Assembly: GCA_016462645.1 (NCBI GenBank) | Contig: JAEMSX010000001.1 | Coordinates: 127,999 to 191,998 of the forward strand | Source of the DNA: Thermoleophilaceae bacterium | GTDB taxonomy: Bacteria; Actinomycetota; Thermoleophilia; Solirubrobacterales; JACPNS01 | DNA: 64,000 nt | Direction: 5' to 3' | In this document: one piece after another, positions 21,567 through 43,042 of the stretch | Layout: every line of letters starts with the position of its first letter | Position numbering within the stretch: the first letter of the stretch is position 1 | Program-made: the position numbers and the translations under genes | The notes under the pieces: model-generated | What the model saw: the letters and a program-made list of their open reading frames with translations, nothing else | What the model was told of the DNA's origin: nothing | Databases searched by the model: none

Positions 21567-22580
21567 CTACTGCTCGAGTGTGCCGCTGGCCTTTTGGCGT
21601 TCGACGTCTTCGACGTCGGCGTCGACCATCATGTCGACGAGACCTTCAAACGTGACCTTCGGCTTCCAACCGAGCTTCTGCTCGGCGCGCGACGGGTCAC
21701 CGATCAACAGGTCGACCTCGGTCGGGCGGAAGTAGCGCGGATCGACCTCGACGTACTCCTCGTAGTTCAGCCCGACGCGTGAGAACGCGCGATCGACGAA
21801 CTCGCGAACCGTGTGCGTCTCGCCAGTGGCGATCACGTAGTCGGCCGGCTCATCCTGCTGGAGCATCAGCCATTGCGCCTCGACGTAGTCGCCGGCAAAA
21901 CCCCAGTCGCGCTTGGCCTCGAGGTTGCCGAGGTAGAGCTTGTCCTGAACGCCGGCCTTGATGCGCGCGACGGCGCGGGTGATCTTGCGCGTCACGAACG
22001 TCTCGCCACGGCGCGGCGATTCGTGGTTGAAGAGAATGCCGTTGCTGGCGTGCAGTCCGTAGCCCTCGCGGTAGTTGACCACGATCCAGTACGCGTAGAG
22101 CTTCGCCACGGCATACGGGCTGCGCGGGTAGAAGGGCGTGTCCTCGTTCTGCGGTACGGCCTGGACCAGCCCGTAGAGCTCGCTTGAAGACGCCTGGTAG
22201 AACCGCGCGGGGACCTCGGTCTCGCGGATCGCCTCAAGCAGGCGCAGGGCGCCGAGACCGGTGACTTCACCGGTGTACTCAGGGATCTCGAAGGAGACCT
22301 TGACGTGGGACTGTGCTGCAAGGTTGTAGATCTCATCCGGCGCGACCTTCTCGAGCACGCGATTCAGCGACGAAGCGTCGTTCAGGTCGCCGTAGTGCAG
22401 GTGGAGGTCGGTGGTCTGCTTGAACGGATCCGAGTAGATGTGGTCGATCCGCTGCGTGTTGATGGAGCTCGACCGGCGGATGAGGCCGTGGACCTCATAC
22501 CCCTTCTCAAGGAGCAGGTCGGCGAGGTAGCTGCCGTCCTGGCCGGTGATTCCGGTGATAAGTGCCTTTTTTGTAGCCAT
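21567..22580 (-). CDS. gmd: GDP-mannose 4,6-dehydratase
   Basis: 337 residues. Converts GDP-D-mannose to GDP-4-keto-6-deoxy-D-mannose, the branch point for GDP-L-fucose, GDP-D-rhamnose and GDP-colitose. Rossmann motif [14 protein letters not shown] (about 9-22), [12 protein letters not shown], the SSSELYG catalytic Ser/Glu, SPYAVAK Tyr/Lys, and the Gmd-specific [16 protein letters not shown] and [17 protein letters not shown] 22580 is chosen over an in-frame upstream extension because the fold starts there. Its start codon is only 2 bp from the start of a divergent Gmd homologue, an unusually tight head-to-head pair. Confidence 0.93.
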
Positions 22581-22582
22581 AA

Positions 22583-23596
22583 GTGGAGCGTACAATTGCA
22601 CACATCGCCGACGCGACCGAAAACCACGCCGCCGACGCGGCACCGCGTCGTGCGCTGATCACGGGAATCGGCGGCCAGGACGGGAGCTATCTCACCGAGA
22701 TTCTGCTTGCACGCGGCTACACCGTCAGCGGCGTCGTCGAACGCGACCCGGCGATCAGGCGCTCGAACCTCACCGCCGTGCAGGACCAGATCGATCTGCA
22801 CACGATCGACCTGACCGACCGCGACGCAGTCGACGCCCTGGTCTCGGGCTGCGCTCCGCATGAGATCTACAACCTCGCTGCGCCTTCGTTCGTGCCGGCA
22901 TCCTGGGACGACCCGACCGCGACGCTCGATTTCATGAGCGGATCGACCGTGCGCCTGCTGGACGCGATCGTGCGTCTGACGCCGGAGACGCGCTACTTCC
23001 AGGCCAGCTCAAGTGAAATCTTCCGCGGCACCGATCAGTCGCCGCAGAACGAGGAGACGACGCCGCGGCCGATCTCACCGTACGGAGTGGGCAAGCTCGC
23101 GGGCCACGGCCTGGTCAACTCATTCCGCGTCGAGCACGGGGTCTTCGCCTGTTCGGGCATCCTCTTCAACCACGAATCGCCGCGCCGACCGGTCGACTTC
23201 GTGACGCGCAAGATCGTCAACGGCGCGGCAAGGATCAAACGCGGCGAACTCGACAAGCTGCAGCTCGGCGACCTCTCGGCCAAGCGCGACTGGGGCTACG
23301 CCCCGGACTACGTCGAGGCGATGTGGAAGATGCTGCAGGTCGAGGAGCCCGACGACTACGTGCTCGCGACCGGCAAGCTGCACACCGTCGAGCAGCTCGT
23401 CGAGGCGGCCTTCGCGGAGTTCGACCTCGACCCGAAGGAATACGTCGTGACCGACCCGAACTTCTTGCGCAAGGCCGACGAGGCGCTGCTCGTCGGCGAT
23501 CCGACCCGCGCGGCCGAGAAGCTCGGCTGGAGCGCGACGACCTCGTTCGAAGAGATGATTGCGATCATGGCCGCGGCGGAGCTGGCGGGCGACTGA
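22583..23596 (+). CDS. second GDP-mannose 4,6-dehydratase-like protein
   Basis: 337 residues, clearly a Gmd homologue: [14 protein letters not shown] (about 28-41), [27 protein letters not shown] (Tyr about 166), [16 protein letters not shown] and [16 protein letters not shown]. It differs from its neighbour in an extra N-terminal leader of about 24 residues and in several substrate-pocket positions, so it may act on another GDP-sugar or support the first enzyme. GTG 22583 is forced by an in-frame stop directly before it. The glycosyltransferase gene follows after 5 bp, so both are probably co-transcribed. Confidence 0.82.
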
Positions 23597-29702: not shown

Positions 29703-30807
29703 TCGACCGGAGTTCACGATCGTCGACCTGCGCTCCGGTCGCGGGCTCGGCGGTCACTGCTTTGACTACCTCGTCGCACTGAAGGCAGCGTTCGCCGATC
29801 GGGAGATCGCGATCATCGCGCCTTTCGTCGGCCCCGACGCCGCGCCGAACAATCGTTTGACCGTGTATGTGCGCGGCTTCTTCGCGTACCGCCGAGCGAT
29901 CGCGGACCGTGGCATCGGCCTGGTGCACAACTCAAGTCTGAACGACTACATCTGCCTCGCGCTGGCGGCGCTGCTGACCAGACCGTCGCGGCGCGGATTC
30001 TGCATGATGATGCTCTACCGCGATCCCTCGATCAGCTCGTTCGGCGCGGGTTCGGAGCGGCTCAATCGCGCGACGATCTGGCTGATCTCGAAGATGATCC
30101 GCGGCGGCGTCCTGCGGCCGATGTCCGATTCGCCACTGGTGCTCGAGCACTGGCTGGAGGCTACGGCGACCAGCGCCGGGTACGTCGTGCCGACGCCCCC
30201 GCTGCCGACGGCCGAGGGCGACGAGCAGGAGGTCGGATCCACCCTCGTGCTCCCCGCGGGCGCGAGTCCGCTGTTCGTGATCCCTGGACGCATGCGCGCC
30301 GAGAAAGGCGCCGCGAGCTACGCCGTCGTTGTCGAGGCGGTGCTCGAGGGATTCCCCGCGGGCGTGATCGTCCTGCAGGCCGCGGCCGATGACGAGGTCT
30401 CCGCCGAAGCGCTGGCGACGCTGCGCAAGAAGTTCGGCGATAACCCGCGGCTCGTCCTGCTCGAGGGCCACCTCTCCGCGGATGACTACCGCACGCTGCT
30501 CGCGGCTGCCGATGTCGCCGTGCTGCCGTACGACACCGCCGCGTACGGCGCCGGTTCGAGCGGGGTGGTCGGGGACGCGCTCGCGTCGGGCGCGATCGTT
30601 GTGGCATCGCCGATCGAATGGATCAGGCTCGAGCACGGTGACGACCCGCGCGTCGTGCTCCTCGATGACCCCGGCTCCGTTGAATCCGTCGGCGCCGCGC
30701 TCAAGGACGCCACAACGCGCAGCGAGAACGCCGCGCCCGCCAGCGACTCGTCAGCCGAGTTTGCCGCTCGCTGGAACGAAGCCGTCAGCAGGGCGATCGG
30801 CGACTAG
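29695..30807 (+). CDS. atypical GT-B glycosyltransferase-like protein (paralogue of 43054-44199)
   Basis: 370 residues from ATG 29695, which overlaps the upstream gene. No EX7E motif. Instead the C-terminal half carries LEGHLSADDYRTLLAAADV, VLPYDTAAYGAGSSGVVGD and ALASGAIVVASP, a pattern shared almost position for position with the product of 43054-44199. The PYDxxxYGxGSSG stretch sits where GT4 enzymes bind the donor phosphate. A nucleotide-sugar glycosyltransferase is the likeliest role. The stop TAG lies inside a CTAG shared with the convergent flippase gene. Confidence 0.7.
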   Translation: MADRPEFTIVDLRSGRGLGGHCFDYLVALKAAFADREIAIIAPFVGPDAAPNNRLTVYVRGFFAYRRAIADRGIGLVHNSSLNDYICLALAALLTRPSRRGFCMMMLYRDPSISSFGAGSERLNRATIWLISKMIRGGVLRPMSDSPLVLEHWLEATATSAGYVVPTPPLPTAEGDEQEVGSTLVLPAGASPLFVIPGRMRAEKGAASYAVVVEAVLEGFPAGVIVLQAAADDEVSAEALATLRKKFGDNPRLVLLEGHLSADDYRTLLAAADVAVLPYDTAAYGAGSSGVVGDALASGAIVVASPIEWIRLEHGDDPRVVLLDDPGSVESVGAALKDATTRSENAAPASDSSAEFAARWNEAVSRAIGD

Positions 30808-32270
30808 CCGCCCGAAAGCCGCGGCCCGAGCAACGGGATGCGATCAGTCAGCTCCGGCGGGAACACACGCAGGAAGAGGCCGGCGATCACGTAGACCGCG
30901 GTTCCGAGGATCGCCGCGATCAGTCCGGGCAGGTGCAGCAGCGCTACCGCGCATCCGAGGCCGCCGGCCACCAGCGCGGATACGAACCAGCTGAGCTTCG
31001 GCAGCGCCTCGCGATCGATCTGTGCGGTCACGAAGAGATAGCCCGACGCAATCAGAGCCTCGCCGAAGACGATGCCGAGCGCGGCGCCGCTGGCACCCCA
31101 CTCGGTGGCCGCAAACCAGGTGGCGATCACGCTCACCGTCGCGCCGATCAATGTGATGCGTACGAGCTCGCGATGCCGGCCCGACGCGAGCAGCACAAAG
31201 CTTCCGGTCCCGAGCACGAAGGTCGCCGGAAAAGCGAGGCTGATCAGCGCAATCAGGTCGGTCGCCTCCACGTACTTGTCACCGCCGAGAACGGCGGAGA
31301 CGAACGTCGCCCCGGTCACGAGCGCGACGGTGCATGCGAGGCCCGCAGCGACCGCCGTCTGCATGAGTCTGCGAATTGCGTAAACCATCCGCTGGATGTC
31401 GTCCTTGGAACTCGTCACGAGCAGCGGGAACGCGCCGCCTGCGGCGACCATCCAGCCGCCGAGCAGTACGGCGTAGATCCGGAATGCCAGCGCGAACTGT
31501 CCGGCGTCGTACTCGGTCAGCACGCGCGCGCTGACGATCTGCGCGAGGAAGGGATACATCGTGCCGATGCTCGCCGCGACGGCGAAAGTGCCAACGTCCG
31601 CAAACAGCGTGCGCATCGCCTGCGGATCCCAGGCCGGTTTCAGGGGCGCGAGCCTGCGCGCGCGGACTCCGAAGGCAAATGCGATGACGATCGAAACCGG
31701 CAGCATCGTCGCAATGATCACGCCGACGTTCCCCGTGACTACGGCTGCAGCGATCAGCAGCGTCGACCACAGTGCCTGGCGGATCACATCAAGCGCGGCG
31801 AGCGCGTTGAGGTCATAGGTCGCCTGCAGCGGTACTGCGTAGGACGACTGCAGCGACTGCGTCGGAATCGCGAGGGCGGCGAAGAACAAGCCGACGATCA
31901 GCGCCGTCGAGTAGTCCGCCGCAAAACCGAACAGCACGATCATCGTGCCGGCGACGAAACTGAAGAGCAGTCGCAGAGTGATCAGCGCGCGGAACGCACG
32001 GTCGCGTGCCTTGCCTTCGAGCGCCGCGTACTCGCGCACGCCCAGCGCGAGCAGTCCGAAGTCTGAGATCCCCAGCGCGACCGTGACCAGCGACATCGCC
32101 GTGGCGAAGTGACCGAAGTCCTCGGGGCCGATCGAGCGCGAGATGACCGAGGTCGAGGCAACGCCGAGGATCGTCGCGAAGCCGTACCCGACCGCGCGCC
32201 AGACTCCGCCGCCGACGATTCTCTTGCCGATGTTGTCGTCGGCCCGGACGGGCGCTGATTCCGAGTTCAT
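30804..32270 (-). CDS. Wzx-type polysaccharide flippase (MATE-like/MVF superfamily)
   Basis: 488 residues with about 14 membrane helices in pairs and few polar loops. The N-terminus (GGGVWRAVGYGFATILGVAS, then SIGPEDFGHFATAMSLV) is typical of O-unit and teichuronic-type flippases, which move undecaprenyl-linked oligosaccharide to the outer face. It is the only flippase candidate here, which suggests a Wzx/Wzy-type rather than ABC-type export. First gene of a four-gene leftward operon: its ATG precedes, with ATGA overlap, the glycosyltransferase stop convention of the next gene. Confidence 0.85.
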   Translation of the reverse strand: MNSESAPVRADDNIGKRIVGGGVWRAVGYGFATILGVASTSVISRSIGPEDFGHFATAMSLVTVALGISDFGLLALGVREYAALEGKARDRAFRALITLRLLFSFVAGTMIVLFGFAADYSTALIVGLFFAALAIPTQSLQSSYAVPLQATYDLNALAALDVIRQALWSTLLIAAAVVTGNVGVIIATMLPVSIVIAFAFGVRARRLAPLKPAWDPQAMRTLFADVGTFAVAASIGTMYPFLAQIVSARVLTEYDAGQFALAFRIYAVLLGGWMVAAGGAFPLLVTSSKDDIQRMVYAIRRLMQTAVAAGLACTVALVTGATFVSAVLGGDKYVEATDLIALISLAFPATFVLGTGSFVLLASGRHRELVRITLIGATVSVIATWFAATEWGASGAALGIVFGEALIASGYLFVTAQIDREALPKLSWFVSALVAGGLGCAVALLHLPGLIAAILGTAVYVIAGLFLRVFPPELTDRIPLLGPRLSGG

Positions 32271-33409
32271 CTGCCGAGCACCTGCTCGTACGCGTCGATC
32301 GTCAACTGCGCCGCGCGCTCCCAGGAGAACTCGGCGGCGCGCTCGCGTCCGGCCGCAGCCAGCTGCTCGCGCCGCGCCGGATCCGCCAGCAGGTCGTCGA
32401 TCGTCGTCGCGATCGAATCGACGCTGAACGGATCGAAGTAGACCGCCGCGTCACCGCCGACCTCCGGCATCGAAGAGGTGTTTGAAGTCGCGACCGGGAG
32501 TCCATGCTCCATCGCTTCAAGCACCGGAAGCCCGAACCCTTCAGCGAGCGACGGGAAGGCCAGTAGCGTCGAGGCGGCGTAGAGACCGTCGAGATCGGCG
32601 TCATCGATCCAGCCCAGCAGATGCACACGCTCTTTGAGACCGAGCGACTCGATCTGCGCCAGCAGCTCGTCCTCGGCCCCGGTTGCGTATCCGGGCAGCA
32701 CGAGCGCCGGCGCGGGGTCGGCCTTCAAGCGCGCGACGGCCTCGAGCAGGCGACCGAGATTCTTGTGGCCGCGGCGCGCTGACGTGGCGAGGATCAGCGG
32801 CGCGTCGCCAAGACCGAGACGGCTGCGCAGCTCGGCCTCGGGTGTCGGCGGTCCCGGTGTACGCGCCGCAATCGGCACGACCGCGATCTTCTCGCGCGGA
32901 ACGCCGAGGTGCTCGACGATCTCGTCAGCGGATGCCTCTGAAAGGGTCACGACGCGCTCAGCGGTGTTCGCCCCGATCGGCACGAGCACGGACTGGCCGG
33001 CGCGCATCACCGCCGAGTGCGACTCGGGGTGGGTTGCGTACATCACGTCATGCGTCGAGGTGACCTGCGGCACGCCGCAGAAGCGCGGGCCGGTCATCGC
33101 GAAGTTGTGCAGCAGGTCGAGCTTGTGGCGCCGGGCCGCCGCGGGAAGGATCGTCTGCTCGCCGAGCACACGAAGCAGTCTGCCGGTACTGGGCACCGGA
33201 AGCGTGACGGGCTGCGCGCCGAGCCCGCGGACTTCGTCCGCGCTGATTCCGCCGCTGCCGATGAATGCGAGCAGTTCCCAGTCGGGCCGCAGCGCGTGCA
33301 GTGCCGGGATCAACATGCGCGCGTACGTCTCCGTGCCGCCGGTCTCGCCGGGCACGAGGTAAAGCAGGTTCAGACCGATGCGCGGTGCGTGCCGCGGCGT
33401 CGGGGTCAT
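32267..33409 (-). CDS. family 4 glycosyltransferase
   Basis: 380 residues. [21 protein letters not shown] near the N-terminus, [12 protein letters not shown], then a donor domain with [18 protein letters not shown] and the EX7E motif EGFGLPVLE at about 288-296. Paralogue of the enzyme at 23602. Start ATG 33409 shares ATGA with the stop of the upstream GDP-sugar gene, and its own stop shares ATGA with the flippase start, so translation is coupled on both sides. A longer frame upstream is Arg-rich and rejected. Confidence 0.88.
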
Positions 33410-34416
33410 CGCTCGTTCGCTGCGGCCTCGGCTGCGGCGCGACGATCGACGTCGGAGTCGACCCACTCGCGGTTCTCGCGGAACCATTCAACGGTGCGCG
33501 CGATGCCATCGTCAAATCCGACAGATGCCTCGAATCCGAAAGCCTCGGCGGCGCGCGTGGTGTCGAGCATGCGCCGTGGCTGTCCTCCGGGCTTGGACGT
33601 GTTCCAGTTCAGCGGGCCGCTGTAGCCGGTGGCCTTGGCGATCAGCTCGGCGAGGTCCTTGATCGTGATCTCGAAGCCGGCGCCGAGGTTGATCGGGTCG
33701 GCCTCGTCGTAGCGCTCGGTCGCGAGCAGAATCGCGCGGGCGCATTCGTCGACGTAGAGAAACTCGCGGCTCGGGGAGCCGTCGCCCCAGAGCTCGACGG
33801 CCTCGCCGCGCTCTTCGGCCTCGATCATCTTGCGGATCATCGCCGGAATCACGTGCGAGCTCTCGAGGTCGAAGTTGTCGCGCGGTCCGTAGAGATTGAC
33901 CGGCATCAGGAAGATCGTGTCCATCCCGTACTGCTCGCGGTAGCCCTGAAGACCGGCGAGCAGCGCCTTCTTTGCGATTCCGTAAGGAGCGTTGGTCTCT
34001 TCGGGGTAGCCGTTCCAGAGTTCTTCCTCACGGAACGGGACCGGCGTGAACTTCGGGTAGGAGCAGATCGTCCCGAGCTGCACGAACTTCGACGTGCCGC
34101 TCTTTCTTGCCTGCTCGAGCATCAGCGCGCCCATCATCAAGTTGTCGTACCAGTAGGCGCCGGGGTTGTGACTGTTGGCGCCGATCCCTCCGACGCGCGC
34201 GGCGAGGTGGATCACGATCTCCGGCTCGGCGTCGTTGTAGAGGCGCTCGACGGCCTCGGATGTGACCAGGTCGTAGTCCACGCGGCGCGGAACGACAACA
34301 TCGGCGCCGAGCGCTTCGAGGCGGTCGACGACGTGCGAACCGAGAAATCCCGCGCCGCCGCTGACGACGATGCGCTTGCCGGAATAGAACTCGGGGGTCG
34401 GTTGAGTGACGGTCAC
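33406..34416 (-). CDS. fcl: GDP-L-fucose synthase family epimerase/reductase
   Basis: 336 residues. Family enzymes take GDP-4-keto-6-deoxy-D-mannose through 3,5-epimerisation and NADPH reduction to GDP-L-fucose; the close relative ColC makes GDP-L-colitose from the 3-deoxy substrate. Seen: [14 protein letters not shown] (about 17-30), [13 protein letters not shown] (signature of this family), [19 protein letters not shown] with the Tyr/Lys pair (about 146/150), and [11 protein letters not shown]. Because a ColD-like enzyme lies nearby, colitose is as possible a product as fucose. Start GTG 34416 follows an in-frame Arg-rich extension that I reject. Confidence 0.85.
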
Positions 34417-34426
34417 GCGCTGAATC

Positions 34427-35527
34427 TTATTGCGTCGATGTCTTCGCGAGCAGCGCCCTGTAGACAGCGACGGTCGCATCCGCGCAGGCCTGCCAGGTGA
34501 AAGTCGCGGCGTGGGCCAGCCCGCGCTCGATCATCTCCCCGCGCAGCTCCGGGGATCCGAGGACACGCGCAAGGGTCTCCGCGATCTGCTCCGGGTCGTC
34601 AGGGTCGATCACTTCTGCGGCGTCGCCGATCGCCTCCGCGAGGCTCGTGTTGTCCGTGCTGATCACCGGGGTGCCGCAGGCCATCGCCTCGAGCGGTGGG
34701 AAGCCGAAGCCCTCGTAGCGCGACGGAAACACGAGGCACTCCGCGCCGCGATAGAGCGCGATCAGCTCGTCATCCGTGACCCGACCGAGCAGATGAATCC
34801 GCCCCGAGGCGGTCGAGCGTTCGATGCGCTGGATCAGCTCGTCATCGTGCCAGCCGCGCGCGCCGACGATCACGAGGTGCTCGGCGCGCGCGGACCCGAG
34901 CAGCTCGAATGCCTCGATCGCAGCGGCGAGGTTCTTTCGCGGCTGCAGGGTGCCGACCGTGAGCACGTACGGCTCGCCCACTCCGAGTGCGGCGATGGCG
35001 TCGGCGTCGGCCGCGGCCGCCTCTGGCGTGAAGCGCGAGTCAAGCCCCAGCGGGACCGTCGTGATCCGTGCCGGATCGAGGTCAAGCGCTGCGATCAGGC
35101 GCCCGCGTGAATACTCGGACGAAGTGATCACGTGCGCGCCGCTGGCGATCGCCCGCGGCAGGCGCTTGTGCAGCTGAGCGACGTTTGCGCGGGTGAGCCA
35201 CTCGGGATGCTCCCAGCCGATCGCATCGTGAAGCGTCACGACCATCGGCACGACGCAGCTGGGCGGCACGAGCTGAGACGGACAGTGGAGAATCTCTGCG
35301 CCGCTCGCGGCCACGCGCTGCGGCAACACGCGCGGCAGGTACCAGAGCTCACGCGCCAGGCCGCGGGCGATCACGCCGAGGCTGCTCGTCGGCACCCGTC
35401 CTTCATGTTCGAGCCGCACGAGTTCAACGCCCGGCTCGGCTTCGAGCCGCGGCAACAGCTGCTCAATCGCGCGCGCCGTTCCCCCGCGGTCGAGTTGAAG
35501 TGCGGTCAGTTCGATCGCCACGCGCAT
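34427..35527 (-). CDS. family 4 glycosyltransferase
   Basis: 366 residues. [35 protein letters not shown] and [10 protein letters not shown] form the first domain; [36 protein letters not shown] and the EX7E motif EGFGFPPLE (about 274-282) form the donor domain. The arrangement matches mannosyl- and rhamnosyl-transferases of the WbaZ/MtfB type, though specificity cannot be read. ATG 35527 is chosen at the start of the fold; the frame continues upstream as an Arg-rich sequence without a ribosome site. It sits 10 bp before the fucose-synthase-like gene. Confidence 0.87.
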
Positions 35528-35586
35528 AGGCGCACAGTATTTCGCCTGCCCGGGCGGCTCCCGAGGCGCGATTAGAGTCTGCCGCC

Positions 35587-36789
35587 ATGAAGATCGCGCT
35601 ACTCCACGGATACGTCGGCGGCCCGGCCGGCGGCGGCGGCGGGATTCGCCAGATGCTCGAGCTCGCACGCGGGCTCAAGGAAAAGGGCCATGAGCCGGTC
35701 ATCTGCTCGTACCAATTCGAGCCGGGCACGGTCGACCCGGTGCTGGAATCCGCCTTCGAGTACCGCTCGGTGCACACCGGGAAGATCGAGCACCCGGTGG
35801 GAACACCGGCGATGCTCAAGGTCAAGTGGATCGAGATGGCAAAGCTCGCCAACCTGATCCCGCGCGATGTCGACGTCGTCAACGTGCACGAGAGCCCGGC
35901 GCACATGGCCGGCTACTACGCCCACCTGCGCCGCCGGCTACCGATCGTCTGGACCCGTAACGACCCGCAGCTCTACGAGATGGTCCTGATGCCGGAAGAG
36001 TCGTGGATGCCGTCCAGCGGCAGGCTGATGGACACGGCCTTTCGCGTCGCCGGACTGACCGACCGCGCCGCCGCGCGCGCGATGTCCGCGATCTGCGTGC
36101 TCGACGAGCGCAACGCGCGGCTGGTCAAACGCGCATACGGACGCGATGCCAAGGTGATCCGCAGCGGCGCGGCCCCGCGCTTCTTCAACGCCCCGACCCG
36201 CGCCGAGGCGCGCGCAGAGCTCGGGATCGATCCCGACGAGTTCGCGGTGCTGAGCGTCGGCATCCTGCTTCCGCATCGTCGTCACAAGGACACCGTGCGA
36301 GCCGTCGCGATGCTCAGCCCAGAAGGGCGCAAGCCCCATCTGCGAATCATCGGTTCGGACCACCTCAGCCCCGAGACCGGCGCCGAGATGCGCGAGTTCG
36401 TCGCGCAGAGCGGAATCGAGGACCGCGTCGAGCAGATCCAGACGGCCGTGCCCGACGATCAGCTTCTGGCGCACTTCGCGGCGGCCGACGCGTTCGTCTT
36501 CGCCAACGAGAAACAGACCTGGGGCCTCGCCCCGCTCGAGGCGATCGCCGCCGGCACGCCGGTCGTGGTCTCCCGCGGCGCAGGAGTGCACGAGGTGCTC
36601 GACGGACGCAAGGGCGTGCAGCTCGTCGACGCTCGCGCGCCGGAGCAGATCGCGGCGGCCCTGGAGCGCATTCGCAGCTCCCCCGAGGACCAGGACGTGA
36701 CCGAGACACGTGAGTGGAGCCGTCAGGAGTTCAGCTCGTCGGCCTTCTCCGGCCGCATGGCCGACCTCTTTGCCAGTGTCGTCGGCTAG
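35587..36789 (+). CDS. family 4 glycosyltransferase with altered EX7E motif
   Basis: 400 residues. MKIALLHGYVGGPAGGGGGIRQM supplies an unusually glycine-rich first loop; DVVNVHESPAHMAG and SVGILLPHRRHKDTVRAVAML follow. Where other GT4 enzymes here have E(G)FGLPVLE, this one reads QTWGLAPLE: the first Glu is Gln and the second is kept. The rest of the fold is intact, so I treat it as active with altered donor contacts. Divergent from the gene at 34427. Its TAG stop is inside a CTAG shared with the convergent reductase gene. Confidence 0.83.
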   Translation: MKIALLHGYVGGPAGGGGGIRQMLELARGLKEKGHEPVICSYQFEPGTVDPVLESAFEYRSVHTGKIEHPVGTPAMLKVKWIEMAKLANLIPRDVDVVNVHESPAHMAGYYAHLRRRLPIVWTRNDPQLYEMVLMPEESWMPSSGRLMDTAFRVAGLTDRAAARAMSAICVLDERNARLVKRAYGRDAKVIRSGAAPRFFNAPTRAEARAELGIDPDEFAVLSVGILLPHRRHKDTVRAVAMLSPEGRKPHLRIIGSDHLSPETGAEMREFVAQSGIEDRVEQIQTAVPDDQLLAHFAAADAFVFANEKQTWGLAPLEAIAAGTPVVVSRGAGVHEVLDGRKGVQLVDARAPEQIAAALERIRSSPEDQDVTETREWSRQEFSSSAFSGRMADLFASVVG

Positions 36790-37745
36790 TTCGCTTCGCG
36801 CACGCGCCGGCGCCAGAACTCAGCGAGGTCCGTGAGCGTCTGCTCAAGCGAGTAGTGCGGCTGCCAGCCGGTGGCATCGCTGAGCGCGGTGCGATCGCCG
36901 ACAACGACAGGCTGATCGACGGCGCGCAATCGCGCCTCGTCGGTCACGATCGCGACGTCGATCCCGAATGCGTCAATCAGCCCTTCGAGCAGCAGGCGCA
37001 TCGTCACGCCGCTGCCCGAGCAGACGTTGTAGATCGAACCGCTCTCGCCGGCGCGGGCGAGCGCGCGGTATGCGCTCACGACATCGCGGACGTCGAGATA
37101 GTCACGCTCGACGTCGAGCGTGCCGGTCGCGATCTCCCCTGAACCGCCGGCGAGCTCGATGCGCGCGAGTTGCTCGGCCCAGTCCGAAAGCGCGTAGGCG
37201 CCGACGTGGCCCGGTCCGGTGTGCTGGAAGGCACGCGCGATCACCGCGTCGCCGCCGCTCGCTGCGTGCGCGAGGAGCACATTCTCGGCCGCAACCTTGG
37301 TCTCGCCGTAGGGCGTGAGCGGCCGCAGTGGCTGCGCCTCGCCGATCGGCTGTTCATCGGGAGTGGTGCGGCCGTAGACAAATGCCGAGCTGGCGAAGAC
37401 GATCCGGATCGCGGGATCGATCGCGGACACGGCGTCGGCCACGGCCTGCGTGCCGCCGACGTTCACACGCTCCAGCTCTTCGATCGACGGTGTCGTGACG
37501 GTGTCCACGATCGCCGCAAGGTGGAAGACGCTGCTCGGACGAACCTGCTCGATCAGCGCAGTGAGCGCCTCCCGGTCGGCGACGTCGAACGCATGACCCT
37601 CGGTGCCGGGCGGCGTCGCGCCCGATCGCGTCAGCGCGTGCACGCTCCGGCCCTCCTCGAGCAGTTGCGCGCAGAGGTGAGTTCCGGCGAACCCGGCTGC
37701 TCCTGTGACCAGGACGGTGCCGGAATCAGCCGTCGTAGAAGTCAC
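36786..37745 (-). CDS. rmd: GDP-4-keto-6-deoxy-D-mannose reductase (GDP-D-rhamnose synthesis)
   Basis: 319 residues, extended SDR. Rmd reduces the Gmd product to GDP-D-rhamnose. Family landmarks are in order: VTGAAGFAGTHL (about 13-24), FHLAAIVDTV, FASSAFVYG, TPYGETK with Tyr/Lys (about 145/149), FQHTGPGHVG followed by SDWAEQLARIE, RDYLDVRDVVSAY, YNVCSGSGVTMRLLLE, and LRAVDQPVVVGD before TGW near the C-terminus. The VCSG and RDxxDVRD elements separate it from GalE and RmlD. GTG start inside the upstream gene (20-nt overlap), so translation is coupled to the ColD-like gene. Confidence 0.8.
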   Translation of the reverse strand: MTSTTADSGTVLVTGAAGFAGTHLCAQLLEEGRSVHALTRSGATPPGTEGHAFDVADREALTALIEQVRPSSVFHLAAIVDTVTTPSIEELERVNVGGTQAVADAVSAIDPAIRIVFASSAFVYGRTTPDEQPIGEAQPLRPLTPYGETKVAAENVLLAHAASGGDAVIARAFQHTGPGHVGAYALSDWAEQLARIELAGGSGEIATGTLDVERDYLDVRDVVSAYRALARAGESGSIYNVCSGSGVTMRLLLEGLIDAFGIDVAIVTDEARLRAVDQPVVVGDRTALSDATGWQPHYSLEQTLTDLAEFWRRRVREAN

Positions 37746-39015
37746 GGAAGGCTTGGGCTATGTGCGCGATCTGACCGTCGGTCAGGCTCGGGTGATTGCC
37801 GATGAAGAGTCCGCGTTCACCGACGCGTGTGGCGACTTCGAGCGACCCGACCTTGCGGTGATCGTTGTTGCTGAAGGCGGGCTGAAGCGCGAGGTTGCCG
37901 GCGACGATCGGGCGCGTCGCGATGTTGCGTGCCTCGAGGTGGTTGGTCAGCGCGACGCGCTGCTCAGGGCTGTCGGTGATGACCGAGAAACCGAACCAGG
38001 TGCTGCGACCACCCTCCTGCTCATTGATCAGACGCAGGCGATCGCTGTAGGGATGCAGCGCCTCGGCCAGACGATGCGCGTTGACGCGGCGCGCGTCGTT
38101 GAAACTTGAGAGCTTCTTCAGCTGCGCGAGACCGAAGGCCGCCTGCGTCTCCATCGGTCGCAGGTTGTAGCCGACGTTCACGAACAGGAAACGTGGGTCG
38201 ATCTCCGGGTTCGCCGACTCGAGCTCCGGGCGGTTGGACATGTCGCGCGACCAGCCGTGCGCGCGGAGCGAACGCGCGAGGTCGTTGAGCACGGGATCGT
38301 CGGTCACGACCATCCCACCCTCGATCGTCGTGATGTGGTGCGAGAAGTAGAAGCTGTAGGTGCCGAAGTCACCGAACGAGCCGACCTTGCGGCCGCCGAT
38401 CTCGGTGCCGAGCGACTCGCAGGTGTCCTCGACCACCCAGAGGCCGTGCTCGCGAGCGCGCTGCATCAGCGGCTCCATGTCGACCGGGTTTCCGAGCAGG
38501 TGCACGGGAAAGACTGCGCGAGTGCGGTCCGAAAGCGCTTCGTCGATGCTCTCGGGGCGCATGTTCAGCGTGTCCTCATCGATGTCCACGAAGACCGGGA
38601 CGCAGCCGAGCTGGAGGATCGGCGCGATCGTGGTGGACCAGGCGATCGCCGGAACGATGATTTCGTCGCCGGGCTTGAGGTGCCCGTCCAGCACTTTCTG
38701 CGCGAGCACGGAGATCGCCAGCAGATTGGCCGACGACCCGCTGTTGACCATGATCGCGTGGCGGCTGCCCATCGCTTCGGCGAAGGCCGCCTCGAACTCG
38801 CGTACGCGGTCGCCCATCGTGACGTTCTGGCTGAGCAGCGCCGCAACGGCACCGGTCACTTCGTCGGCGCCGTAGAGCGGAACCGAGAGCGGGCAGTCCT
38901 CATCGGCCGGCGGAGCCTCGAGCTCGAAGTACTCCTCGATCAGCGCGTCGATTTCCTGCTCGATGGCGGAACGGCGCGCGGATCCGGCTGCTGTGTCTGC
39001 GTTCGGCGAAGTCAT
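37726..39015 (-). CDS. ColD-like PLP enzyme, GDP-4-keto-6-deoxymannose 3-dehydratase
   Basis: 429 residues, DegT/DnrJ/EryC1 fold I. The region where aminotransferases have the Schiff-base lysine reads SFYFSHHITTIEGGMV, with His226-His227 and no Lys. Loss of this lysine is the diagnostic change in ColD and in the E1 dehydratases, which remove the 3-hydroxyl of a 4-keto-6-deoxy sugar instead of transaminating it. E1-type enzymes also have a C-terminal four-Cys cluster site; none is present here, which favours ColD. Other PLP landmarks: NSGSSANLL (phosphate loop), VVEDTCESLGTE (Asp for pyridine N). Predicted product: GDP-4-keto-3,6-dideoxymannose, a colitose precursor. Overlaps the Rmd-type gene by 20 nt. 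Confidence 0.78.
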   Translation of the reverse strand: MTSPNADTAAGSARRSAIEQEIDALIEEYFELEAPPADEDCPLSVPLYGADEVTGAVAALLSQNVTMGDRVREFEAAFAEAMGSRHAIMVNSGSSANLLAISVLAQKVLDGHLKPGDEIIVPAIAWSTTIAPILQLGCVPVFVDIDEDTLNMRPESIDEALSDRTRAVFPVHLLGNPVDMEPLMQRAREHGLWVVEDTCESLGTEIGGRKVGSFGDFGTYSFYFSHHITTIEGGMVVTDDPVLNDLARSLRAHGWSRDMSNRPELESANPEIDPRFLFVNVGYNLRPMETQAAFGLAQLKKLSSFNDARRVNAHRLAEALHPYSDRLRLINEQEGGRSTWFGFSVITDSPEQRVALTNHLEARNIATRPIVAGNLALQPAFSNNDHRKVGSLEVATRVGERGLFIGNHPSLTDGQIAHIAQAFRDFYDG

Positions 39016-41826: not shown

Positions 41827-42278
41827 TGGCCGTGCTGTTCGCAATCCAGGGCCTGAGCTCGCGGCTCCAGCTCGTCTCGATCATCGTCACCGCGGCCCTG
41901 CTGATCTTCGTCTTCGAGCTGATCCGTCGTCGCAAGCTGATGGAGCGCTACTCACTGCTCTGGCTGCTCGCCGCCGTCGTGCTGCTCGTGCTTGCGATCT
42001 TCGATGACCTGCTGGCGAACTTTGCGTCCGCAGTCGGCATCGCGACACCTTCGAACGCGCTGTTCGCGGCGGCGATCGGATTCCTGATCCTGCTCGTGCT
42101 GCACTTCTCGACTTCGATCTCGCGCCTGACCGACGAATCGAAGGTGCTCGCGCAGCGCCTCGCGCTTGCCGAGGAACGGTTGCACCGGCTCGACGGCTCG
42201 CCCGACGAAGACGCCGTCGAAGCCGAGCGCCGAGAGCTCGCGGCCGAACCGCCGCTGAGCGAACATCACCCGTCATGA
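41826..42278 (+). CDS. DUF2304 membrane protein
   Basis: 150 residues with three helices (about 17-35, 46-64, 78-97) and a charged C-terminal helix (about 105-135, probably coiled coil). The sequence LIRRRKLMERYSLLWLLAAV after helix 1 is the DUF2304 signature. Function unproven; family members sit beside DPM1-like glycosyltransferases and probably recruit them to the membrane. Coupled by overlap to both neighbours (TGATG before, ATGA after). Confidence 0.85.
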   Translation: MAVLFAIQGLSSRLQLVSIIVTAALLIFVFELIRRRKLMERYSLLWLLAAVVLLVLAIFDDLLANFASAVGIATPSNALFAAAIGFLILLVLHFSTSISRLTDESKVLAQRLALAEERLHRLDGSPDEDAVEAERRELAAEPPLSEHHPS

Positions 42279-43042
42279 ACCTGCCGCGGCGGCGCGAGAT
42301 CGTCGGCACGCAGGTGTCGATCACCGACTACGCCGAAGTCCTTGACAGCTTCGATGCGGCGATCGCCGGCGACGAGCGAATCTTCGTTTGCTGCGCCCCC
42401 GCCAGCACGTTGATGTTCGCGCGGCGCGACGAACGGCTGCAGCAGGCGCTGGCTGCCGCGCAGATCGTGACGCCCGACGGAATGGGCGTGGTCTACGCAG
42501 CGCGACTGCTCGGCGAGTCGATCGGCGATCGTGTCTATGGACCGGACCTGATGCTCGCTCAACTCGAACGCGCCGCCGCGGCGGGCACGCCGACCTTCCT
42601 CGTCGGCGGCCACGACCAAGCTGCGCTCGATCTGTTGCAGGAGACGCTGATCGATCGGTTCCCGGGGCTCAGCATCGTGGGCGGCGTCTCCCCGCCGCAT
42701 CGCGAGCCGACACCCGATGAGCGGACCGCGACGATCGACGCGATCAACGCATCGGGAGCGCAGATCGTCTGGGTCGGCCTGGGCAGCCCGAAACAGGAGC
42801 TCTGGATGATGGATCACCGCGACGCGCTGGCGGCGCCGGTGCTCTGCGGAGTCGGGGCGGCGTTCGACTTCCTGATCGGCCGCGTCGAGCAGGCGCCGCG
42901 CTGGATGCAGTCGCGCGGGCTCGAGTGGCTCTACCGCGTGTTCAAAGAGCCGCGGCGCCTCGGGCATCGCTATCTGATCACGCTGCCGGCGTTCGCGGCC
43001 GGCGTCGTCAGCCAGCGTCTGCGCGGCGCTTCGGCTGAGTAG
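42275..43042 (+). CDS. WecG/TagA/CpsF family glycosyltransferase (GT26)
   Basis: 255 residues. GT26 enzymes add N-acetylmannosamine(uronic acid) or glucose to a lipid-linked first sugar, a committing early step in teichoic acid, ECA or capsule synthesis. Seen: CCAPASTLMFARRDE, IVTPDGMGVVYAARLLG with the catalytic-region Asp, VYGPDLM, FLVGGHDQAALD, VWVGLGSPKQELWM, CGVGAAFDFLIGRVEQAPRW and the C-terminal GLEWLYRVFKEPRRL hallmark. That C-terminal part folds over the active site at the membrane. Begins within the DUF2304 stop (ATGA). Confidence 0.9.
   Translation: MNLPRRREIVGTQVSITDYAEVLDSFDAAIAGDERIFVCCAPASTLMFARRDERLQQALAAAQIVTPDGMGVVYAARLLGESIGDRVYGPDLMLAQLERAAAAGTPTFLVGGHDQAALDLLQETLIDRFPGLSIVGGVSPPHREPTPDERTATIDAINASGAQIVWVGLGSPKQELWMMDHRDALAAPVLCGVGAAFDFLIGRVEQAPRWMQSRGLEWLYRVFKEPRRLGHRYLITLPAFAAGVVSQRLRGASAE

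Follow-up and report, generated by a model that had tools for sequence, protein, structure and literature searches.

The window, a 64,000-nucleotide stretch of genomic DNA, carries a colD-type gene that overlaps the gene of a reductase related to RMD. This kind of dehydratase, a vitamin-B6 enzyme that takes an oxygen off a GDP-linked sugar, is already known. What is new here is that an RMD-type reductase stands beside it in ColC's place. The pairing argues against colitose. The neighboring reductase suggests a tyvelose-type sugar made by an undescribed route instead, and from the sequences we consider it fairly likely that GMD, ColD and the RMD-like reductase (RMDl) together make GDP-3,6-dideoxy-D-arabino-hexose (GDP-D-tyvelose).

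The colD-type gene, for a predicted GDP-4-keto-6-deoxy-D-mannose 3-dehydratase, is located at 37726–39015 on the minus strand. Its ORF starts with ATG at 39015, ends with TGA at 37726 and encodes 429 amino acids. The product matches PF01041 (DegT/DnrJ/EryC1/StrS) with 313.8 bits. Among solved structures, ColD (2gms, 270.8 bits) and E1 (3bcx, 245 bits) score above all true aminotransferases. Residues 221–234 are SFYFSHHITTIEGG and contain the motif SFYFSHHITT. Alignments to ColD and E1, which the earlier note had proposed as a check, put His226 in the column of the catalytic histidines, His188 in ColD and His220 in E1. No substitute lysine is found in residues 212–238 around His226–His227. The ORF, the codons of His226 (38338–38340, minus strand) and His227 (38335–38337, minus strand) and the alignments bear out the claim of that note that a histidine pair at 38335–38340 occupies the position of the aminotransferase lysine. 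The pair is invariant in 13–14 aligned homologues from several phyla, indicating that the motif is not a chance occurrence. Alignment and invariance place the first of the two, His226, at the catalytic-base position as the predicted catalytic residue. PDB variants of ColD alter its equivalent (H188N in 3b8x, H188K/S187N in 3gr9), and 2r0t also has a lysine there. Such a replacement of lysine by histidine is known to characterize 3-dehydratases (PMC8987622).

Only the first of the four cluster cysteines in E1 has an equivalent in the ColD-type protein, Cys199, which is likewise kept in E. coli ColD. The CYC...C segment of E1 with the other three ligands is absent from both proteins in the alignment. 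The claim that the iron-sulfur cysteine set is missing therefore holds for three of the four positions, while Cys199 is retained.

In a maximum-likelihood tree, the protein is located on the ColD side of the split between ColD and E1/SpnQ (100/100). A further tree gave the corresponding placement (100 SH-aLRT). Within the ColD side it is one of eight sequences in a clade (100/99) whose named members are all from Actinomycetota. The ColDs of E. coli O55, Chelatococcus and G354 form a separate clade that excludes it. The window protein shares with E. coli O55 ColD (2gms, 3b8x, 3gr9) the fold, the Ser-His-His and RPIV.GN motifs, the missing iron-sulfur cysteine set and a GMD within the cluster. 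It differs in sequence (~40% identity), in its well-supported separate clade, in an additional E1-like N-terminal helix and in its partner reductase, which is RMD-type and not ColC. The AlphaFold2 model (mean pLDDT 87.8) has E1 and ColD as its best Foldseek matches, with higher identity to ColD (~38%) than to E1 (~34%). Sequence, phylogeny and the model group the protein with PMP/glutamate-dependent GDP-4-keto-6-deoxymannose 3-dehydratases. Together with the GMD in the window, they make a ColD-type reaction very likely. We have little doubt that the predicted step is C3 dehydration of GDP-4-keto-6-deoxy-D-mannose, with the PMP recharged by glutamate. Sequence, residues, tree, fold and the GMD within the cluster thus lend good support to the ColD-like 3-dehydratase proposed in the earlier note.

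The RMDl gene (36786–37745, minus strand, GTG start) overlaps the end of colD by 20 bases. In E. coli O55 it is colC that adjoins colD. ColC catalyzes C5 epimerisation and C4 reduction. RMD is a GDP-D-rhamnose-forming C4-reductase acting on GDP-4-keto-6-deoxymannose. The best PDB matches of RMDl are two RMDs, 2pk3 (174.6 bits) and 6x3b (160 bits), which are also its best fold matches and its nearest solved relatives by either measure. The SDR catalytic pair Tyr146-x3-Lys150 (37296–37310, minus strand) aligns with Tyr136 and Lys140 of Fcl. Phe122 (37380–37382, minus strand) is located in the column of the catalytic Cys109 of Fcl and ColC, where GMD has its catalytic Glu, and the column of His179 in Fcl and ColC is a tyrosine. 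These two replacements suggest that RMDl does not epimerize C5. Among solved GDP-sugar SDRs RMDl is closest to RMD, with YxxxK kept and both Cys109 and His179 absent, which identifies it as a putative RMD-type (GDP-D-rhamnose) C4-reductase, not a ColC-like enzyme. Its predicted substrate is the 3-deoxy ketone rather than GDP-4-keto-6-deoxymannose.

RMDl or an orthologue follows colD in seven genomes: the window genome (G000), its sister genomes G001 and G004, Terrabacter, Intrasporangium, Cellulomonas and G621. The seven colD-linked sequences form their own clade (SH-aLRT 97), apart from the RMDs of colD-negative relatives. Its signature is SSAF(V/A)YG, found in this clade only, together with FQH.G.GH. 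It has Phe (SSAFVYG) and FQH.GPGH, whereas RMD has Glu or Asp in place of the Phe, in all ordinary RMDs read, and FNH.GPGQ. Among 151 relatives, colD is found only in G000, G001 and G004, and RMDl of at least 54% identity is found in exactly the same genomes. Fifteen others have ordinary RMDs only, with 34–43% identity. These counts are not independent trials, as the co-occurrence at the genus level concerns three related genomes and some are incomplete. G536 has colD and no RMDl match, but its contig ends just beyond colD.

A GT4 gene is located between colD and RMDl in G001, Terrabacter, Intrasporangium, Cellulomonas and G621, pointing to a colD-glycosyltransferase-reductase module common to the genus of the window and the Micrococcales loci. 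A search for this intervening gene in G000 did not find it, and it is absent from G004 as well. In the Micrococcales loci, gmd adjoins colD. Overall, colD occurs in 3 of the 151 relatives, in 2 of 397 genomes across the phylum (including the window genome) and in 3 of 150 Intrasporangiaceae. It is rare and patchy, as expected of a horizontally moving surface-glycan module.

The substrate of ColD would be made by GMD, a GDP-mannose 4,6-dehydratase encoded at 21567–22643 on the minus strand (TIGR01472, 553.6 bits, cut-off 415). A divergent second GMD paralogue (22583–23596, plus strand; PF16363, 348 bits) is located head to head with it. The two are 46% identical, and the paralogue reads SSSEIFRG in place of the SSSELYG motif, with another residue for its Tyr. 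The paralogue occurs in four of five genus genomes, including the colD-negative G002 and G003, and is absent from the colD-positive G001. It was therefore rejected as a dedicated partner of colD. The surrounding cluster extends from ~16.6 to 47 kb and contains many GT2 and GT4 glycosyltransferases, a flippase, a WecG-type transferase and dTDP-rhamnose genes. The flippase (30804–32270, minus strand) matches PF01943, and the WecG/TagA-type glycosyltransferase (42275–43042, plus strand) matches PF03808 with 193 bits. Two GT4 glycosyltransferases (PF00534), one at 34427–35668 on the minus strand and one at 35587–36789 on the plus strand, convergent with RMDl, are syntenic in G004. No structured RNA was found in the window. 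This gene content is consistent with synthesis of an exported polysaccharide.

We propose the following pathway. GMD would convert GDP-mannose to GDP-4-keto-6-deoxy-D-mannose, the substrate of ColD predicted from the GMD gene and homology. ColD, loaded with PMP via glutamate transamination, would form a ketimine at C4. His226 would take the C4' proton of PMP and the C3 hydroxyl would depart. Hydrolysis would then release ammonia and leave GDP-4-keto-3,6-dideoxy-D-mannose, and the reaction would need no iron-sulfur partner (for the ColD cofactor mechanism, see PMC8987622). RMDl would reduce C4 with NAD(P)H, leaving C5 not inverted, to give GDP-D-tyvelose, which may be incorporated into the surface polysaccharide made by the cluster. 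The C4 reduction that RMD carries out to form D-rhamnose, applied to the ColD product, gives 3,6-dideoxy-D-arabino-hexose, which is D-tyvelose.

The earlier note had expected a 3,6-dideoxyhexose and named colitose. A 3,6-dideoxyhexose is still expected, but the RMD-type partner makes a D-configured sugar (tyvelose) more likely than L-colitose. Colitose itself is not supported, since the overlapping reductase lacks the epimerase Cys and His of ColC and Fcl, and the one gene that has them is not tied to colD. This GDP-L-fucose-synthase-like gene (GFSl; 33406–34479, minus strand; NF047922, 299.6 bits) is the sole ColC/Fcl-like gene in the window. It keeps the Fcl catalytic positions except Ser107, which is Thr, out of five in all; those kept include the equivalents of Cys109, His179, Tyr136 and Lys140. 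As ColC is an Fcl homologue, colitose could still be made if GFSl used the 3-deoxy ketone from ColD, GDP-4-keto-3,6-dideoxymannose, in the manner of ColC, while RMDl separately made GDP-D-rhamnose from GDP-4-keto-6-deoxymannose. An Fcl homologue is also found in the Terrabacter, Cellulomonas and Intrasporangium clusters. However, these Micrococcales homologues are 48–53% identical to true Fcl, and GFSl is itself closer to E. coli Fcl (38% identity) than to ColC (33%). GFSl is found in 28 of the 151 relatives and in all five genus genomes, including the colD-negative G002 and G003, compared to three of five for colD. Its presence in sister genomes without colD indicates that GFSl is probably not the partner of colD and probably independent of it. 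RMDl, by contrast, does track colD, and its signature is unseen in ordinary RMDs. Colitose is therefore unlikely, and its synthesis via ColC was set aside because the only ColC/Fcl-like gene fails to track colD. The ColDs of E. coli O55, Chelatococcus and G354 adjoin ColC-type genes.

The main uncertainty of the tyvelose assignment is the C4 configuration, D-arabino or D-lyxo, which sequence does not settle, as RMD-type enzymes differ. Raushel and colleagues found that a ColD-type C3-dehydratase and a C4-reductase, in the absence of an epimerase, give GDP-3,6-dideoxy-D-arabino-heptose or the D-lyxo isomer in vitro, depending on the reductase used (PMC10440746). The heptose precedent suggests that GDP-tyvelose chemistry is feasible. 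The natural Campylobacter jejuni GDP-3,6-dideoxy-heptose pathways resemble the one proposed here in having a GDP-linked 4,6-dehydratase, a ColD-type C3-dehydratase and a separate C4-reductase; they differ in using a heptose rather than a hexose, and a natural C5-epimerase to make L-sugars (PMC10440746). Opposite C4 reduction in the same pathway would give GDP-3,6-dideoxy-D-lyxo-hexose (the 3,6-dideoxy-D-talose configuration). Campylobacter C4-reductases produce either configuration from a 3-deoxy ketone (PMC10440746), and the pocket residues of RMDl are unusual (Phe122 and the FQH and GH motifs). The closest characterized enzymes, however, are GDP-D-rhamnose-forming RMDs, and we regard the D-lyxo product as improbable.

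Other reactions of the dehydratase itself are less plausible still. E1 (RfbH/DdhC) and SpnQ share the fold, the catalytic His and the N-terminal extension with the window protein, but they contain a 2Fe-2S cluster and act on CDP- or dTDP-sugars, whereas the window protein is missing three of the four cysteines and is found in a GDP context. An E1/SpnQ-type dehydration of such a sugar with an external reductase might be suggested by the NCBIfam RfbH model NF011936, which scores highest of the models (361.6 bits), and by the full-length fold match, slightly better for E1 than for ColD owing to the common N-terminal helix. The RfbH score is below its cut-off of 423, the ColD/E1 split is fully supported, the cluster contains GMD, and CDP-glucose dehydratase models all score below cut-off for the cluster SDRs tested. 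This reaction is very improbable, and an E1/CDP route for the cluster was rejected because both the cysteine set and the RfbH score fail. A sugar aminotransferase with a non-canonical residue, such as a GDP-perosamine synthase, would fit the common Pfam family and the in vitro transamination by SpnQ (PMC8987622), but is hardly credible and was rejected, as lysine is missing at and near the position, Ser225-His226 agree with the residues of ColD, and the ColD structure that does have the aminotransferase residues comes from an engineered double mutant (3gr9, S187N/H188K).

The known route to tyvelose runs through CDP-linked sugars. The Salmonella and Yersinia pathway leads to the sugar predicted here, 3,6-dideoxy-D-arabino-hexose, but proceeds through E1/E3, CDP-paratose and a 2-epimerase, whereas the window pathway would be GDP-linked from mannose with no 2-epimerase. 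Among the open-access papers searched, nothing on point was found for 'GDP-tyvelose', or for tyvelose or colitose in actinobacteria. We put at about even the chances that the GDP-D-tyvelose pathway is a second, independent tyvelose route for an Actinomycetota surface glycan, and that the colD-glycosyltransferase-reductase module was inherited across distant lineages. 3,6-Dideoxyhexoses are strong antigenic sugars, and enterobacterial O-antigens are their main known source. If true, a GDP route to a D-3,6-dideoxyhexose would add a new branch to nucleotide-sugar biosynthesis and would caution annotators against reading the presence of ColD as synthesis of colitose. It is directly testable, as Terrabacter and Intrasporangium strains are culturable.

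The host is probably a member of Actinomycetota, as the earlier note supposed: the nearest ColDs of the window protein are from this phylum, and the top seven plasmid-borne matches of the GroEL encoded on G000 are all actinobacterial. It is not a typical actinomycete, since a homologue of the actinobacterial marker WhiB was not found in the 82% complete assembly. The absence of WhiB beside an actinobacterial GroEL suggests a deep-branching lineage.

Other arrangements of colD were also observed. In one Cyclobacteriaceae genome (L011, 2749–5321) and one Pelagibacteraceae genome (L014, 9989–12174), a colD homologue is followed by an RMD-side reductase of a second clade, in which the Glu is kept (SSSEV). 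This suggests that the pairing of ColD with RMD arose more than once. A Haladaptatus plasmid (L082, 6100–9230) has an archaeal operon of gmd, an SDR gene and colD. Its SDR has SSAAVYG, a motif without Cys, and is neither Fcl/ColC-like nor clearly RMD-like; this is another ColD without ColC. In L010, L016 and L021, gmd comes directly after colD, and next to it is a fucose-synthase-like gene that has an SSAC motif and resembles GFSl more closely than it does Fcl or ColC. These loci may represent colitose clusters whose ColC has diverged. Finally, G354, which belongs to the same class as the window genome, contains at L093, 6695–14952, a ColC-type colitose set beside E1-like and CDP-glucose-dehydratase-like genes.
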